24,527 nucleotides of DNA, taken from IMG/VR virus record IMGVR_UViG_3300037193_002051, positions 1 through 24,527 of that record, one strand, 5' to 3'. The notes below the pieces were generated by a model, which worked only from the letters and a program-made list of their open reading frames with translations, was not told the DNA's origin and searched no databases. The position numbers and the translations under genes were made by a program. This document shows, in pieces, positions 17,677 through 23,958 of this stretch; position 1 is the first letter of the stretch, and each line of letters starts with the position of its first letter. Source of the DNA: a virus.

Positions 17677-19005
17677 TCAGCTCGCCGAGTGCTCCAGCAC
17701 CACGGCCCGCTTGAACATGGCCGGGTCGCCGTTCGCGAGCGAGTCGGACGGGACTCCGTAGTCGCCGACCCACGACCAGGTCGTGGAGACGTTCTGCTGG
17801 TAGCGGTCCTGCGGCGGGCGGACGATCCGGGTCACGTCCACGCCCGGGGCCACGTTCATCGACGTGATCTCCGGGACGTCCTGCACGCCGGTCTCCGACA
17901 GCAGGTTCGCCGCACCCGCGAACGGGGCCGCGATCAGCGCGCCCTCGCCGACGACGATCGGCCGGTGCACCGTGGTGGTCAGGTCTTCGTAGCCGGTGGT
18001 CGCGGTCGTGAGGTACGGGACCTCTTCGTTGCGGACCCACACCAGGCCGCCGAACACGCCGATCGCCAGGTCCCGGTACGTGGTCGAGTCCGCGCGACCG
18101 CGGTACAGGTTCTGGAACTCTGTGTCCTCGAACAGCTGCGACTCCGTCACGCTGTCGATGTGCGCGACGTAGCTGGAGCCCTCCGCCGGGGGAACGTGCT
18201 GACGGCGCAGGCGCGCCACCGCGGCCCGGAAGTGCGAGAACTTGATCAGGTCGCCCGCGCCGAGGTCGAACGCCGTGTCGTTCGAGGTGCCGGCGCGGAC
18301 CGAGTACGGGGCCTGCGTGGACACCACGGAGTCGCCGACGACGTCCACGCGGGCGGTGCCCAGGGTGAGCGTGCCGGTGCTGGTGTCGACGCCCGTCACG
18401 GTGTTCGCGACGCCCTCGATGGTGATGTTCAGCGGCATCGACGCGGACACCGCGGTCGGGACGCCGTTGACCAGGACGTGCGTGAACCCGTCCGTCGATG
18501 CCACCACGATGCTGGTGTCCGAGGTGCCCGCGGTGCGGCAGAAGGTGCGCCCGCCCGCGTAGCCCTTGTACAGCTTGTTGCGCGCCAGCAGGTTGATCGT
18601 CTGACCGGCGTGGATGCCCAGGCGGGAGACGTCGTTGAGGTACTTCGACGCCTGCGTCATCGACGACTGGAGCAAGTCGGTGTCGATGGACTTGCCGTAC
18701 TGGTCCATCACCACTTCCCACTGCTCGATGCTGTACGTGCCCGCGGTCGCGTCCGAACCGGTCGTCGGCGTCGGGTCCGGGGTCATGAGCCCGTTCCGGG
18801 TCATGATCTTCCGGGTGCCCTTCGCGCCCTCCCACGGCTCGACGTCCGCGATCTGCGGGAACAGCAGCTCCGGCAGCAGCGACTCGCGGAACATGCGGTC
18901 CAGCAGGCCGTCCTGCATGATCGCGCGGATCGAGGCCGGCAGCGTCGTCCGGATGTCGTGCCGGTCGAGCCGGAACCACGACCGGGCAACGGTCTTGGTG
19001 GTCAT
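17677..19005 (-). CDS. major capsid protein (HK97 fold with inserted beta domain)
   Basis: This is a 442-residue head subunit. Residues 10-17 (WFRLDRHD) repeat a block near the N-terminus of the scaffold. The helix-rich stretch (about 20-140) includes SIRAIMQDGLLDRMFRESL and the E-loop region. Residues of about 160-238 form a strand-rich insert (VVASTDGF, PLNITIEGV, GTLTLG, VGDSVV) like the I-domain of P22-type coat proteins. The remaining part (about 250-442) has FSHFRAAVARLR and repeated strands of the A and P domains. ATG 19005 overlaps the preceding protease stop by 4 nt (ATGA) and has AGGAGA upstream. The N-terminal arm is a likely target for processing. Confidence 0.9.
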   Translation of the reverse strand: MTTKTVARSWFRLDRHDIRTTLPASIRAIMQDGLLDRMFRESLLPELLFPQIADVEPWEGAKGTRKIMTRNGLMTPDPTPTTGSDATAGTYSIEQWEVVMDQYGKSIDTDLLQSSMTQASKYLNDVSRLGIHAGQTINLLARNKLYKGYAGGRTFCRTAGTSDTSIVVASTDGFTHVLVNGVPTAVSASMPLNITIEGVANTVTGVDTSTGTLTLGTARVDVVGDSVVSTQAPYSVRAGTSNDTAFDLGAGDLIKFSHFRAAVARLRRQHVPPAEGSSYVAHIDSVTESQLFEDTEFQNLYRGRADSTTYRDLAIGVFGGLVWVRNEEVPYLTTATTGYEDLTTTVHRPIVVGEGALIAAPFAGAANLLSETGVQDVPEITSMNVAPGVDVTRIVRPPQDRYQQNVSTTWSWVGDYGVPSDSLANGDPAMFKRAVVLEHSAS

Positions 19006-19196
19006 GTGTTCTCCTGTGTGATCTCGACGGACACAAGGTCCGGATGCAGCGCCGCGACCTGTTCCAGGCCCAGCAGCGCGGTTTGGGTGATGGCCGACAC
19101 CGCGGCGCAGACACGCCCGTCGCGGACGCGGCCCTCGTGGCCGTCGACGTCCAGACGGAACCGGCCGTCCGCCAGCACCGCCCGGACGCGGATCAC
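19002..19196 (-). CDS. Prp-family cysteine protease (DUF464), probable prohead protease
   Basis: This encodes 64 residues. GHEG (Gly19-His20) and VCAAVSAITQTALLGLE (Cys30) match the core of the Prp family: a catalytic His in GH, then a catalytic Cys in VCAxxSA. In Staphylococcus Prp the two lie 12 residues apart; here 10. It is shorter than cellular Prp (about 105 residues) and lacks the C-terminal part. Prp is known to remove the N-terminal extension of ribosomal protein L27 and to process scaffold and capsid of phage 80alpha. Here the gene lies between scaffold and capsid genes, overlapping each by 4 nt (GTGA, ATGA), so it should be made together with them. The family call rests on motif and length; the substrates are inferred from the shared N-termini of its neighbours. 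Confidence 0.8.
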   Translation of the reverse strand: MIRVRAVLADGRFRLDVDGHEGRVRDGRVCAAVSAITQTALLGLEQVAALHPDLVSVEITQENT

Positions 19197-19864
19197 CGGC
19201 GAAGCCTCACGCCGAGCTCGGCGAGCTTGGCGTCGACCTCTTCACGCGAAGCGGTGCGGTAGTCGGTCGGCGGCACGGGCTGCCGCGGGCCCTGGCCCGG
19301 GTCGGGCCGGGGGTTCTTCGGCGGCTCGGGAACCGCGACCGCCTTGCGCAGGTGCGGCTTGCGTTCCAGCAAATCGCTGAGATCCGCGCGGATCGCCTCG
19401 GTGTCGATGTCGCCGGAGTCGTCCGCGTAGCGGGTCAGGTCCAGGAACGCGGCGGCGTCGTCCGGGTCGGCGAAGTCCGCGGCGGCCACCCGTACCTCGG
19501 CGACCACGGCCCGCTTCGTCGCGGCCTCCGCACGCGCAGTGGCCTGCTCCGCTTTCGCGGTGGCGCGCTCAAGCTCCGTCTTGTCGCGGTCCTCGAACTC
19601 GGCGACCTTCTTCGCCAGCTCGGCTGCCTGCTTCTTCGCCGCAGCGGCCTCGCGCTTGGCCTCGGCGCGCTGCGCCTTCATGGCGTCGAGCGCCTTCTGG
19701 CCCTTCGGCCCCAGCGGCTTGTTGTCGTCCGGGTCGTCGTCCGGCTCGTCCTGCGGGTCCGGTTCGTCGTCGGGCTCCGTTGCGGGGTCCGCCGGGTCCG
19801 GCGCGGGCGGGTCGTCGTCGTGGCGGTCCAGGCGGAACCAGGCACGGCGAATCGTGCTCTTCAT
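19193..19864 (-). CDS. capsid scaffold protein
   Basis: This is a 223-residue assembly protein. Residues 9-16 (WFRLDRHD) equal residues 10-17 of the capsid protein. Then comes a very acidic Pro/Asp stretch (17-48), a coiled coil rich in Ala/Lys/Glu (about 56-130), and a C-terminal basic helix (SREEVDAKLAELGVRLRR), the usual capsid-binding end of scaffolds. ATG 19864 has GGGAG nine bases upstream, partly inside a small hairpin. It precedes the Prp-like protease gene with a 4-nt overlap. Removal of its N-terminus by that protease is proposed, not shown. Confidence 0.87.
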   Translation of the reverse strand: MKSTIRRAWFRLDRHDDDPPAPDPADPATEPDDEPDPQDEPDDDPDDNKPLGPKGQKALDAMKAQRAEAKREAAAAKKQAAELAKKVAEFEDRDKTELERATAKAEQATARAEAATKRAVVAEVRVAAADFADPDDAAAFLDLTRYADDSGDIDTEAIRADLSDLLERKPHLRKAVAVPEPPKNPRPDPGQGPRQPVPPTDYRTASREEVDAKLAELGVRLRR

Positions 19865-19930: not shown

Positions 19931-20899
19931 TCAGGTCAGGTACGCGTTCTCGCGCAGCAACCGGATCTGCTCGCCCCGGTCGTCCGTCCGCGCGAAGATC
20001 CCCTCTGGTGTCAGCCGTGGCCGCGTCACCACGGAGTACCGGCCCACACCGCGCTCGATGTCCCCGCCCGCCGCGCGCAGGCGGCGCGCGTAGTACGAGC
20101 GGACCGTGGCGCCCTCGGTCGTCGTGTCCGAGTCCGGGGTGTCCATGCCGCGGCGGGCGTTGACCACCTGCCCGATGTCGGCGCCCTCGCGTAGCGCCCG
20201 CGCGCCCGCGACGGTGAACACCCGGTTCTGCTGCTCCGGCGTCATCTCCCGGAACAAATCCAGGGGTGTCGGCATCTGCCGCCACTCCGCGTCCGTCGCG
20301 GGCCGCACCGTGCAATCACAGTTCGGATGCCGCAGGAAGCCCGTCGAGTAGCTGTACGTCCGCCCGGCCAGGATGATGCAGCGCGCACACGCGGGCAGGT
20401 GCACCACCCGTACGTACATCACCGTGCGCGGGTTCGCGGCCATCGCCACCTGCACCGACGACCGGTCCGCGTCCGCGATCTGCGTCGCTGTGATCCGCGT
20501 CATCTGGTACAGCCCGGCGAGCATCGCCTCGTCATCTGACGCGCCCGCGGCGCGCCGCGAGGCGACCGTGACGGCGGGCACGTACAGCAGCGACGCCAAC
20601 GGCCGCCCGTCCGAGGCGATCCCGGCGAAACCCTGCGGACGCAGCAGCGCCAACGCCGCGACCAAGCCGGCGTTCGCCGCGGCCACGCACTCCTCCACAT
20701 AGCGTTGCGCGCCCGCGGCCACCGACAACTGCCCCGCGGTGACCAGGTCCAGGATCCGGCGGCCCGCGTCGCCCTCAAGGTCGGACTCGATCCGCGACGC
20801 GGTCAGGCCCCGCCAGATCCGCTGGACCTCGTCCACCACGCGGCGTGTGACCGACGCCGTCTGCCGGTACCGCTCGGCGGCCGGTTCAGGCGGCGACAC
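19931..20899 (-). CDS. MuF-like minor capsid protein
   Basis: This encodes 322 residues, placed directly after the portal gene as in Mu, SPP1 (gp7) and many actinophages. A Cys/His group (Cys171, Cys174, His191, Cys194, Cys196, in CARC...RHPNCDC) is the signature of the MuF head-morphogenesis domain. The rest is helical. The family is often labelled 'capsid maturation protease' in actinophages, but no protease motif is visible, and the Prp-like gene is a better candidate for that role. GTG 20899 overlaps the end of the portal gene by 14 nt. Confidence 0.85.
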   Translation of the reverse strand: MSPPEPAAERYRQTASVTRRVVDEVQRIWRGLTASRIESDLEGDAGRRILDLVTAGQLSVAAGAQRYVEECVAAANAGLVAALALLRPQGFAGIASDGRPLASLLYVPAVTVASRRAAGASDDEAMLAGLYQMTRITATQIADADRSSVQVAMAANPRTVMYVRVVHLPACARCIILAGRTYSYSTGFLRHPNCDCTVRPATDAEWRQMPTPLDLFREMTPEQQNRVFTVAGARALREGADIGQVVNARRGMDTPDSDTTTEGATVRSYYARRLRAAGGDIERGVGRYSVVTRPRLTPEGIFARTDDRGEQIRLLRENAYLT

Positions 20900-22316
20900 C
20901 GGTGTTCACCGGCCCGGGCGCGGGCGGTTCCGGCTCCGGCTTCACGCCGGTCTCCACAGCGCCCATGTCCCCGGCGAGGATGCGCCGCACGGCGTCGTTC
21001 GCCTGCCGCTCGTCCTCCGCCTCCATGCGCTCGATCTGCACCGACGTGTAGCCGAGGTCTTCGCGGGTCTGCCGCAGCGGCACGATCTTCGCGACGAAAA
21101 GCTTCTGCGATGCGTCGGCCTTCTGCGCGATCGTCGGCGTGGACGCGTCCCGCCAGATCGTCTCCAGCGACATCGCCTCCGGATCCCAGCTGCCGTCGCG
21201 GATCCGCAGCGCGATCCGCATCGCCTGCTCCCACGAACCGCCCCATGCCCGCTGCTTGCGCTCCGCCCGCTTGATCAGCCGGGCCTCCGACGACCGGATC
21301 GCGTCCGCGGAGGCCGGGTTCGCCGTGGTGAAGCCGAGGAAGTGCGGCGGCAGGCCCGATATGGCCGCGACCAGTTCGGCGAGCTGGTTCAGCGTCTCGT
21401 GGAAGTTCTTCAGGTTCGCCTCGGGGAACTGCCCGAGCTCGACACCCTCCGTCTTCGACTTCCCGATCGCCCAGATCCGGCCGGCGATCCGCTTCAGCGC
21501 GGAGATCTTCCGGCCTTCCTCGTCCTCGAAGTCCTCCGGCCCGACGCCGATCGCGTACCGGCGCGGGATCGCATGGAACTCCGCCGAGATCATCATGTCC
21601 GTGGCGATCTTGCAGGCGGCATCCGACAGCGGAATCACGTCCCGCAGCTCCGACACCCCGCCCCGGCGCATCAACCGCGGACGGTTCGCCAGCACCGCCG
21701 CCGGCACCTTCTTCAAGCCGTGCTCGTCCGCCGGGTAGTCCGGGTCCTCAACCCACTCGCCGCGGTGCTTCACGAACCACGACGTCTCGTTCCTCTCCCG
21801 CAGCGACGCCCGCTCCACCTTGTCCCGGCCGTCGCCCTCGGTGAACTGCTTCGAGACCCGCTCGATCTCCCGCGTCCGCGGATCGAACTCCGCGTAGCAC
21901 TCCAACGGCGACTCCACCGTGATCAACGGCGTACGAGGATCCCCCTCGCGGGTGCCGACGAACACGAACGAGCGCTCCATCACCAGCGCGTCCAGGTGGC
22001 CCTGCTGCGACTCCTCGTCCAGGCCGTTCGCCTGCCAGATCCGCCACAGATCCTCGTCCGCGTCCGACTGCGACCCGAACCGGAAGCCCTCCACGTCCAG
22101 GCGCTCCTCGATGGAGTCCACGACCAGACGCGGCCAGTTCACCACCACCTGCCGCACCCGGTCGTCCAGCTCCTGGATCAGCTCCGGCGCCATGTACGAC
22201 AGCGGCTGCTCGCCCTCGTAGTAGGCGTTCAGCCGCGCGAGTTCGGCCTTCTCCTTGTCGTGGCACTTCAGCATGTGCCGCAGCCGGTCCAGCTTGCTGC
22301 CGTCCTCATCCGCCAC
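20886..22316 (-). CDS. portal protein (SPP1 gp6-like)
   Basis: This is a 476-residue ring protein through which DNA enters and leaves the head. The pattern NAYYEGEQPLSYM, the NWPRLVVDSIEERLDVEGFR segment and the later SGLPPHFLGF and RSSEARLIKRAERKQ motifs are typical of the SPP1-type portal family in actinophages. The C-terminal end is Pro/Glu-rich. GTG 22316 lies 13 nt after the terminase stop with GGGGGTGG upstream. Confidence 0.92.
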   Translation of the reverse strand: MADEDGSKLDRLRHMLKCHDKEKAELARLNAYYEGEQPLSYMAPELIQELDDRVRQVVVNWPRLVVDSIEERLDVEGFRFGSQSDADEDLWRIWQANGLDEESQQGHLDALVMERSFVFVGTREGDPRTPLITVESPLECYAEFDPRTREIERVSKQFTEGDGRDKVERASLRERNETSWFVKHRGEWVEDPDYPADEHGLKKVPAAVLANRPRLMRRGGVSELRDVIPLSDAACKIATDMMISAEFHAIPRRYAIGVGPEDFEDEEGRKISALKRIAGRIWAIGKSKTEGVELGQFPEANLKNFHETLNQLAELVAAISGLPPHFLGFTTANPASADAIRSSEARLIKRAERKQRAWGGSWEQAMRIALRIRDGSWDPEAMSLETIWRDASTPTIAQKADASQKLFVAKIVPLRQTREDLGYTSVQIERMEAEDERQANDAVRRILAGDMGAVETGVKPEPEPPAPGPVNTGVAA

Positions 22317-22329
22317 CGAAGGCCACCCC

Positions 22330-23958
22330 CTACCTCATCACGATGACCTTGCCTGGACGTTTCGGCTTCGCGCCGGCCTTGATCGCATCGGTGCGCGCTT
22401 CCCACGAGAGGCAGCCGGCCATCGCGCCGTCGATCTTGAAGGGGGACTTCGGGCGTTCCTTCTCGATCACCCACAGCGGCTGCGCGTCCTCGTCAAGCAT
22501 CTTCAGCGTGCGCTTGCGTGCGTTGCCGATGTGCTGCGCGAACGTCTCGTCACCCGAGTGCGTCACATCGGCCGACCGCATCGCCCGGTGGTACGCACGG
22601 ACCGCATACGCCATGGCCTTGTGCCGGTTCGTCCACCACTCCTGCACACGGTCCGGCCAGCGCCCGGCCCAGGTGGTGATCATGCCGTCCCAGTACGGCG
22701 GATCCGCATACACGCGCCACACCTGCCAGCGTTCGCACGCGTCCCTCAAGGTCTGGTCGACCTCATCCTCCGGGCACTCCCACTCCTCGTCGCCCGGCGG
22801 GCACTCCCAGATACCCAGCGGCCACTGGAACCCCGACTCCACATGTGTGGCGATCAACGCCGTCGCGTCGCGGAACTGAGCGCCGTCGAAACCGGCCACG
22901 ATCAACTCGCCGTCCGGCACCACGAAACCCACCCGGGCCAGCGCATCCCACCGCTCCCGGTCGAACGCCTGCCGACCCGCCTGCACCCGCCGGTTCAGCC
23001 ACACCCGCTCGAAATACGAGCGGTCCGTGTCCGGCTGGTTGTACAGCGACGCCACATAATCGACCTGGCCCTCGAAGTCCGGCCACGCGGCAATGCTCGG
23101 TCCGGACGCCTCGCGGATGGCCGCGCGCAACTGCTCGTCGTCGTTGAGGTCTTCGTCTTCGCGCGGCGTCGCCTCGCGGTGGAAGAAGAACAGCGTGCGG
23201 TCCTTCGTCTTGCCCGCAGCCACCAGTTCGGCGTACTCGTGCGTGCCCTCGGCGACCGAGCCTTCGCCCGGCGTGTACGTCGTCGTGCTCTCCAGCGACC
23301 ACGGGTCCGCAAGCATGCGCTTCGGGATGTTCGCCAGCATCGTCTGGTGCGATTCCCGAAGCCGCACCAGGACGAACCGGTGAGTCTCGTCGAAGTGCTG
23401 GAACGTCGTCCGGGCGCCGTCGCGGCTGTCCGGCGACGACGCGAGCGCCTGCGCCTTCCCGTCCCCGGCCACGCGCATGATGCGCTCCTGACCCGGGTCG
23501 AAGAGGTCCGCGTCCTCTCCTTCGGTCACCATCACGTACAGCGCGCCGTACGCCAGATCGGAGGTCTGCTCCTCGGTGTACGCCACCATCGGGATGTACG
23601 GGTCACGCACCGGCCGACCCACCGGCTGACCAGCCGCGTCGAACCCGTCGCAGCGAACGGGACCTTCCGGATGCAGTTCCGCGAACGCCACCGCGGCGGC
23701 CAGTTCGGTCTTCGCGGTGCCCTTGCGCACGGACAGCGCCACCCGCTTGAACCGGCGGCGGCCCGCGCGCGGATGCCCCTGCGGATACACCTCGTACCAG
23801 CGGTAGATCAGCGCCCGCTTCTCGTCATCCAGCTTGTACGGCTCGCCGCGCAGGTCGCCCGGGCCGTGCACGCAGCGCTCTTCCAGCAGCTGGCATACCT
23901 GCGGGCCCAGCGTCGGCCACGGCTCCGCATCCGGCTCCGGAACCAGCAGCACGCCCAT
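22330..23958 (-). CDS. terminase large subunit
   Basis: This is a 542-residue packaging motor. The ATPase part has a P-loop-like RKGTAKTE at 78-85 (the usual Gly before Lys is Ala here), a Walker B FQHFDE at 186-191 with the catalytic Glu, and a coupling motif near 224-228 (STTTY). The nuclease part has likely metal-binding Asp358 (GFDGA), Asp419 (YADPP) and Asp510 (FKIDG). ATG 23958 starts three bases after the small-subunit stop. It cuts and pumps phage DNA through the portal. Confidence 0.92.
   Translation of the reverse strand: MGVLLVPEPDAEPWPTLGPQVCQLLEERCVHGPGDLRGEPYKLDDEKRALIYRWYEVYPQGHPRAGRRRFKRVALSVRKGTAKTELAAAVAFAELHPEGPVRCDGFDAAGQPVGRPVRDPYIPMVAYTEEQTSDLAYGALYVMVTEGEDADLFDPGQERIMRVAGDGKAQALASSPDSRDGARTTFQHFDETHRFVLVRLRESHQTMLANIPKRMLADPWSLESTTTYTPGEGSVAEGTHEYAELVAAGKTKDRTLFFFHREATPREDEDLNDDEQLRAAIREASGPSIAAWPDFEGQVDYVASLYNQPDTDRSYFERVWLNRRVQAGRQAFDRERWDALARVGFVVPDGELIVAGFDGAQFRDATALIATHVESGFQWPLGIWECPPGDEEWECPEDEVDQTLRDACERWQVWRVYADPPYWDGMITTWAGRWPDRVQEWWTNRHKAMAYAVRAYHRAMRSADVTHSGDETFAQHIGNARKRTLKMLDEDAQPLWVIEKERPKSPFKIDGAMAGCLSWEARTDAIKAGAKPKRPGKVIVMR

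Follow-up and report, generated by a model that had tools for sequence, protein, structure and literature searches.

A minimal Prp relative encoded between scaffold and capsid genes that share a predicted Prp cleavage site in actinophages

Results

Organization of the head gene cluster

The window (the whole stretch of DNA analyzed, 24,527 nucleotides, positions 1 to 24,527 of IMG/VR virus record IMGVR_UViG_3300037193_002051) encodes a set of head genes on its minus strand, in which a 64-residue protein, here called mini-Prp, is encoded between a scaffolding protein (SP) and a major capsid protein (MCP). The features, from high to low coordinates, are as follows.

22330..23958, minus strand: large terminase (PHROG_9, E 2.3e-69)
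20886..22316, minus strand: portal protein, SPP1 gp6-like (Pfam PF05133, 177 bits)
19931..20899, minus strand: neighboring VG15/PHROG_1522 head protein ('capsid maturation protease' in the annotation of phage Kromp)
19193..19864, minus strand: SP, 223 aa, ATG start (PHROG_4708 head scaffolding, E 1.4e-20)
19817..19840, minus strand: SP residues 9-16, WFRLDRHD, predicted Prp site (from the motif of relatives and alignment with canonical Prp sites)
codon 19822-19820, minus strand: SP H15; predicted SP cut between H15 and D16
19193..19196, minus strand: 4-nt stop/start overlap of SP and mini-Prp, GTGA
19002..19196, minus strand: mini-Prp, 64 aa, GTG start (Pfam PF04327, 27.5 bits)
codon 19139-19137, minus strand: predicted catalytic His20 of mini-Prp
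codon 19109-19107, minus strand: predicted catalytic Cys30 of mini-Prp
19002..19005, minus strand: 4-nt stop/start overlap of mini-Prp and MCP, ATGA, with an AGGAG-like ribosome site immediately upstream
17677..19005, minus strand: MCP, 442 aa, ATG start (PHROG_1357 major head protein, E 3.6e-24)
18955..18978, minus strand: MCP residues 10-17, WFRLDRHD, predicted Prp site, predicted cut H16/D17
sequence stretch spanning the predicted mini-Prp site: TVARSWFRLDRHDIRT

Other profiles gave weaker support for the two structural proteins: SP scored 26.6 bits against Pfam Phage_scaffold (cut-off 35), and MCP matched the N4-gp56 capsid family only weakly (43 bits, cut-off 60). A preliminary description, made from the sequence alone, had made three claims about this cluster, all of which held: that WFRLDRHD is identical in SP 9-16 and MCP 10-17, the coding 24-mers differing at three synonymous third positions; that all three parts lie in one overlapping cluster (both junctions, SP/Prp and Prp/MCP, overlap by 4 nt); and that the 64-residue protein is Prp-like with a His/Cys signature, which is borne out by a Pfam match and an invariant dyad.

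Mini-Prp is a divergent member of the Prp family

The 64-residue protein is a relative of Prp, as homology and the invariant dyad show; catalysis itself is inferred. It matches the Prp/DUF464 profile of Pfam (Peptidase_Prp, PF04327) with 27.5 bits (E 3.8e-6), passing the cut-off of 27, whereas failure to match DUF464 profiles had been named in advance as a refutation; a six-frame search scored it at 25.9 bits, and scores among its relatives reach 35.3 bits. The NCBIfam Prp equivalogs gave only 14-21 bits, far below cut-off, and a profile of the mini-Prp family matches the Prp structures 2g0i and 4peo/7kld in the PDB. Residues G19, H20 and C30, whose SaPrp counterparts are G21, H22 and C34, are invariant in 103 distinct relatives, and a Ser or Thr is retained across mini-Prps at the position of SaPrp Ser38.

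Most relatives are 62-65 aa long, compared with about 95-110 aa for full-length Prp, and the alignment shows that mini-Prp lacks approximately 42 residues of Prp, those that link the catalytic helix to the last strand. The SaPrp loop Asp31-Ile32 also falls in an alignment gap, and Asp31 is required for SaPrp activity (PMC9405229). Because Asp31 and these fold residues are absent (about 40% of the protein), the activity of mini-Prp cannot be assumed, and we regard it as a divergent subfamily rather than a standard C108 Prp.

Structure prediction gave mixed results. An AlphaFold monomer from the single sequence (pLDDT 78) has a strand-strand-strand-helix-strand order, and its best PDB match in Foldseek is the Thermotoga Prp TM1457, with an E value of only 0.066 (match probability 0.90). 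With a 27-row alignment the monomer was predicted as a hairpin plus helix (pLDDT 87.6), and no Prp was among the Foldseek matches of this alignment-based model. Mini-Prp may be an obligate oligomer, although we offer this only as a possibility.

A conserved motif near the N-termini of scaffold and capsid

In the coding frames of the window, matches to [any]F.[LIVM].R[HF] are confined to the SP and MCP sites; one further match lies in a plus strand frame opposite the coding strand. When F.[LI].[RC][HF][DENAM] was searched in some 98 related loci, it matched 95 MCP and 90 SP frames (86 tagged automatically, plus L002, L037, L062 and L094), and of the 3,286 ORFs no shorter than 150 aa only two frames outside SP and MCP; a search of these loci by motif for a third substrate thus returned nothing beyond these two chance frames. 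We scored each position over 97 SP and 104 MCP sites, numbering from the predicted scissile bond. P6 is F (one Y), P4 is L or I (one V), P2 is always R, and the predicted P1 is H in 193 sites and F in 8; the predicted P1' is D, A, N, E or M, mostly D, and P3 is mixed (mostly N, A, T or D), without the P3 Gln of the 80alpha sites. The cores of SP and MCP are identical in only 11 of 96 pairs, yet the same four key positions are kept.

From alignment with canonical sites (see below) we predict cuts after SP His15 and MCP His16; both cleavage and the exact scissile bond are inferred. The predicted cut falls at H|D, following SP residue 15 and MCP residue 16, and thus within the block rather than at its end. 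The leaders that would be removed are basic and comprise 15 residues (SP) and 16 residues (MCP).

Several features of the sites were observed in passing. In L003, L004 and L082 (the Streptomyces scabiei 87.22 type) there are two copies of the motif in the MCP, separated by about 22-27 residues (SWFRLDRHDG...ARPWFDLGRHDVR); this might be a duplicated cleavage site or a leader enlarged via duplication. Many SPs (for example, L007, L012 and L078), and not the MCPs, have a second conserved block, [RS]WL[PS]AA[QH], about 8 residues before the motif. The P7 Trp is absent from the SP in all ten phages whose MCP lacks it (RF, AF or VF for WF; L045, L056, L061, L090, L095, L097, L119, L223, L226 and L242), and present in the SP in 81 of the 86 phages whose MCP has it, so that the two sites apparently co-vary at P7, in counts uncorrected for relatedness. 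In L242 the predicted P1 is Phe rather than His at the SP site (LFLLNRF|D) as well as at the MCP site (VFRLDRF|D).

The motif is in register with canonical Prp sites

The site of the window aligns without gaps to known Prp-type sites, through the series FNLQRF|A (Lactococcus phage PLgT-1), FDLARF|D (relatives) and FRLDRH|D (window). Actinophage SPs with Phe at P1 form the bridge to the PLgT-1 site: L085 and L119 (FDLARF|D) and L020 (FNLARF|D). The SP and MCP sites, respectively, of Firmicute phages that encode a full-length Prp are MNLQLF|A and MNLQKF|A in BL3, LNLQLF|A and FNLQRF|A in PLgT-1, LNLQFF|A and MNLQIF|A in phiFL3A, and MNLQLF|A and INLQLF|A in the metaviral locus L077. Prp-type sites on SP and MCP are also present in TP712, phi9805 and TMW 1.1365 P3, and looser ones in Dorea DO134P1. 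A search for further bridging loci with the Prp of L077 returned only L077 itself. The claim that the phage enzyme has a new target sequence needs one refinement: the target is a re-coded canonical Prp site, in register, and not an unrelated sequence.

In SaPrp, the P4 and P6 Leu lie at the dimer interface, the P1 Phe stacks on His22, and the P3 Gln bonds Gly29 and Asp31; the substrates known for Prp combine a P1 Phe with a small residue at P1' (PMC9405229). The mini-Prp system keeps the P4/P6/P1 side, and Asp31 and the P3 Gln are both gone. This joint loss may reflect a coupled change of specificity, for which it is suggestive and not proof.

Separately, in Oenococcus phage phi9805 (L411 6316-6672) and Latilactobacillus TMW 1.1365 P3 (L412 6325-6660) the small protein encoded between SP and MCP carries INFLA/LNFLA in its N-terminal sequence, conceivably a third, degenerate Prp site.

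Enzyme and sites occur together in relatives

Scanning viral contigs with the 64-residue protein returned 76 loci, and wherever the DNA was present, all of these except the Firmicute-type L077 carry the motif on the upstream SP and the downstream MCP. Apparent exceptions were resolved individually: three were read in the wrong frame (L161, L037 and L062), in one the contig ends within the SP (L089), in one the SP carries the variant FNLACF|D (L002), and in one the MCP is truncated and the motif present (L007); L077 has canonical NLQLF|A sites instead of the actinophage motif. A capsid-profile scan of bacterial genomes yielded 22 loci (in Streptomyces, Nonomuraea, Actinoallomurus, Glycomyces, Sphaerimonospora, Catenulispora and others), with mini-Prp and both motifs wherever the DNA sufficed, and the same scan of viral contigs again found mini-Prp and both motifs where enough DNA was present. 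All loci pooled contain 106 distinct Prp sequences.

We also searched in the opposite direction, independently of Prp, with the DNA pattern of WFxLxRHD. This gave 79 stretches in viral contigs, 66 of them with a mini-Prp nearby; in six of the remaining 13 the match is an SP motif close to where the stretch or contig ends, and the other seven are chance matches in internal positions, such that no real exception (a relative with the block and without a Prp gene) was found by this motif-first search. The enzyme and both sites strictly co-occur wherever the DNA is present. Relatives keeping the SP/MCP block without any Prp-like gene had been named in advance as a refutation, and none was found where neighboring DNA was available. 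The surveyed loci are related by descent, and their number is not a number of independent events; the argument therefore rests on the controls, the register with Prp sites, and the Met1 coincidence described next.

Homologous capsids without Prp

As a negative control we examined eighty loci whose capsid proteins are homologous at about 30% identity, among which two profiles detected no Prp and no SP or MCP carried the motif. The homologous MCP of Komagataeibacter phage phiKX1 (31% identical to the window MCP) starts MAIANFPASLQ, and neither a Prp gene nor the block was found in this phage. When Leu22 of the window MCP is aligned with Phe6 of phiKX1, Asp17 falls at the position of Met1, so that a cut at WFRLDRH|D would leave the same N-terminus as that of the extension-less homologues. 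This coincidence supports the predicted scissile bond independently of the comparison with Prp sites, although cleavage remains inferred.

Sampled hosts lack a recognizable Prp

In 15 actinobacterial genomes with the prophage, PF04327 matches nothing but the prophage copy, and the one genome among 296 Actinomycetota that passes the PF04327 cut-off is a prophage carrier. The earlier statement that actinobacterial L27 lacks the extension held in six host genomes, where L27 starts MAHKKG without an extension. Given no host PF04327 match and no L27 extension, the phage cannot borrow a recognizable host Prp in the way that 80alpha does. We also considered a host Prp as the trimming enzyme and rejected it, finding no non-prophage PF04327 match in the 15 hosts or, at cut-off, in the 296 Actinomycetota.

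Comparison with known systems

The Staphylococcus Prp (MEROPS C108)/80alpha system resembles the present one in its GH...C signature, in hydrophobic P6/P4 and aromatic P1 residues, and in an N-terminal site on both SP and MCP (leaders of 13-14 residues, compared with 15-16 here). It differs in that Prp belongs to the housekeeping enzymes of the host and has about 106 aa, rather than being phage-encoded and 62-65 aa, and cuts F|A after LQ (P3 Gln, P1' Ala/Ser) rather than FxLxRH|D; Staphylococcus Prp also targets ribosomal L27, whereas host L27 is no target here. Assembly of 80alpha requires the SP leader but does not depend on cleaving either CP or SP (PMC5744158), and a growth phenotype is therefore not guaranteed for uncleaved SP or MCP.

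Streptococcus phage Cp-1 likewise encodes a Prp relative (orf13) that trims its major head protein (Martin 1998, cited in PMC12445089) and scores 18.5 bits, below threshold, against PF04327. Unlike mini-Prp, this protease has 104 aa, its gene lies far from the MCP gene of a phi29-like podophage, and about 40-48 residues are removed; no common SP/MCP block was seen in Cp-1. Another parallel is offered by Firmicute siphophages with a DUF464 'peptidase' (Brochothrix BL3, Lactococcus PLgT-1, Enterococcus phiFL3A, Oenococcus phi9805 and metaviral L077), which have a phage Prp in the head operon and Prp-type sites on SP and MCP; they differ in their full-length Prp (95-109 aa), their canonical LQ-x-F|A-type sites, and the place of the gene, which is right after portal (right before SP in L077) and not between SP and MCP. 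The same cassette as ours is found in Streptomyces phage Kromp (gp5-gp6-gp7), whose gp6 is 74% identical and annotated 'protease'; the literature searched contained no account of what it targets or how it works.

Discussion

Proposed mechanism and alternatives

We consider it likely that mini-Prp cuts the leaders of SP and MCP during prohead assembly, with catalysis, bond, timing and role all inferred. In this view mini-Prp would be translated in a manner coupled to SP and MCP, and its His20/Cys30 dyad would cut each once, within F-x-L-x-R-H/F | D/A/N/E, after SP His15 and MCP His16, with loss of the basic 15- and 16-residue leaders during assembly of the prohead. By analogy with 80alpha, the intact leader would probably aid co-assembly of SP and MCP, and cleavage would make the step irreversible. 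What computation has shown is the homology, the conservation of the dyad, the strict linkage, the control modules without Prp, the register, and the lack of a host Prp. Several points count against the explanation: about 42 residues of the Prp fold and Asp31 are missing, only one of the two structure models matched a Prp, the usual His at P1 and Asp at P1' differ from known Prp substrates, and a second gene of the operon is labeled a capsid maturation protease. The preliminary proposal of a minimal processing system of the phage's own is supported, with activity and cleavage inferred and no biochemical data. A bolder reading, that this is one of the smallest known proteases, a Prp pared by about 40% that lost the substrate-contacting Asp and whose specificity switched to F-x-L-x-R-H|D together with both substrates, is one we favor by a small margin.

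The main rival, which we think unlikely, is that the block is a docking peptide of SP and MCP and mini-Prp a catalytically dead, peptide-binding chaperone derived from Prp. In its favor are the missing residues (about 42, plus Asp31) and the finding in 80alpha that the SP N-terminus is essential and cleavage is not, for which a common chaperone was proposed (PMC5744158). Against it, invariant Gly19, His20 and Cys30 in 103 distinct sequences would not be expected of a dead enzyme, the alternation of His and Phe at P1 is as for an S1 pocket, and the predicted product begins exactly at the start of the extension-less homologues.

A weaker rival, for which we see very little likelihood, is that another protease cuts at the block, either the product of gene 19931-20899 or a host enzyme. 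That gene matches PHROG_1522 'head maturation protease' (E 6.9e-82), and the Kromp annotation calls it a 'capsid maturation protease'; however, neither Pfam nor NCBIfam shows a protease domain in its product, the cut site is similar to those of Prp, and this site strictly co-occurs with the Prp gene. Gene 19931-20899 and most of its homologues have a C-x2-C...HP-x-C-x-C signature, which resembles that of MuF-type minor head proteins; we draw this resemblance from the Cys/His signature only, and hhalign found no match of the gene to Firmicute minor head proteins. The protease label may be wrong.

Recent DNA duplication or functionless chance similarity, suggested by the peptide identity of both window blocks, is all but ruled out and was rejected, since the DNA differences are synonymous only, few pairs are identical (11/96) with four key positions kept, and the survey found just two unrelated matches in 3,286 ORFs.

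Novelty and significance

A phage-encoded Prp relative that trims a capsid protein is already known from Cp-1 (PMC12445089, PMC9405229), and DUF464 genes in Firmicute phage head operons and Kromp gp6 ('protease') are already annotated. As far as the literature was searched, the 62-65-aa form, the FxLxRH|D site in SP and MCP alike, and the evidence for joint occurrence of enzyme and sites are new; no description of the SP/mini-Prp/MCP cassette was found there.

Because Kromp is culturable (grown on S. coelicolor), the cassette is directly testable, and annotators of actinophages could name the mini-Prp gene and predict mature capsid N-termini. Prp is an essential enzyme of S. aureus and a drug target; a relative of little over half its size with another recognition sequence would, if the proposal is true, reveal what the catalytic core needs, and would show how an enzyme and two substrates shift specificity jointly, Asp31 and the P3 Gln both being gone. 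The system is separate from host ribosome maturation, and bears on the question raised by 80alpha of why scaffold and capsid carry one cleavable leader. It is probable that Streptomyces-type phages with mini-Prp do the trimming of their shell proteins themselves where the host has no Prp, cleavage being inferred, and the bolder reading, if true, would make this a self-contained prohead-processing cassette in such hosts.
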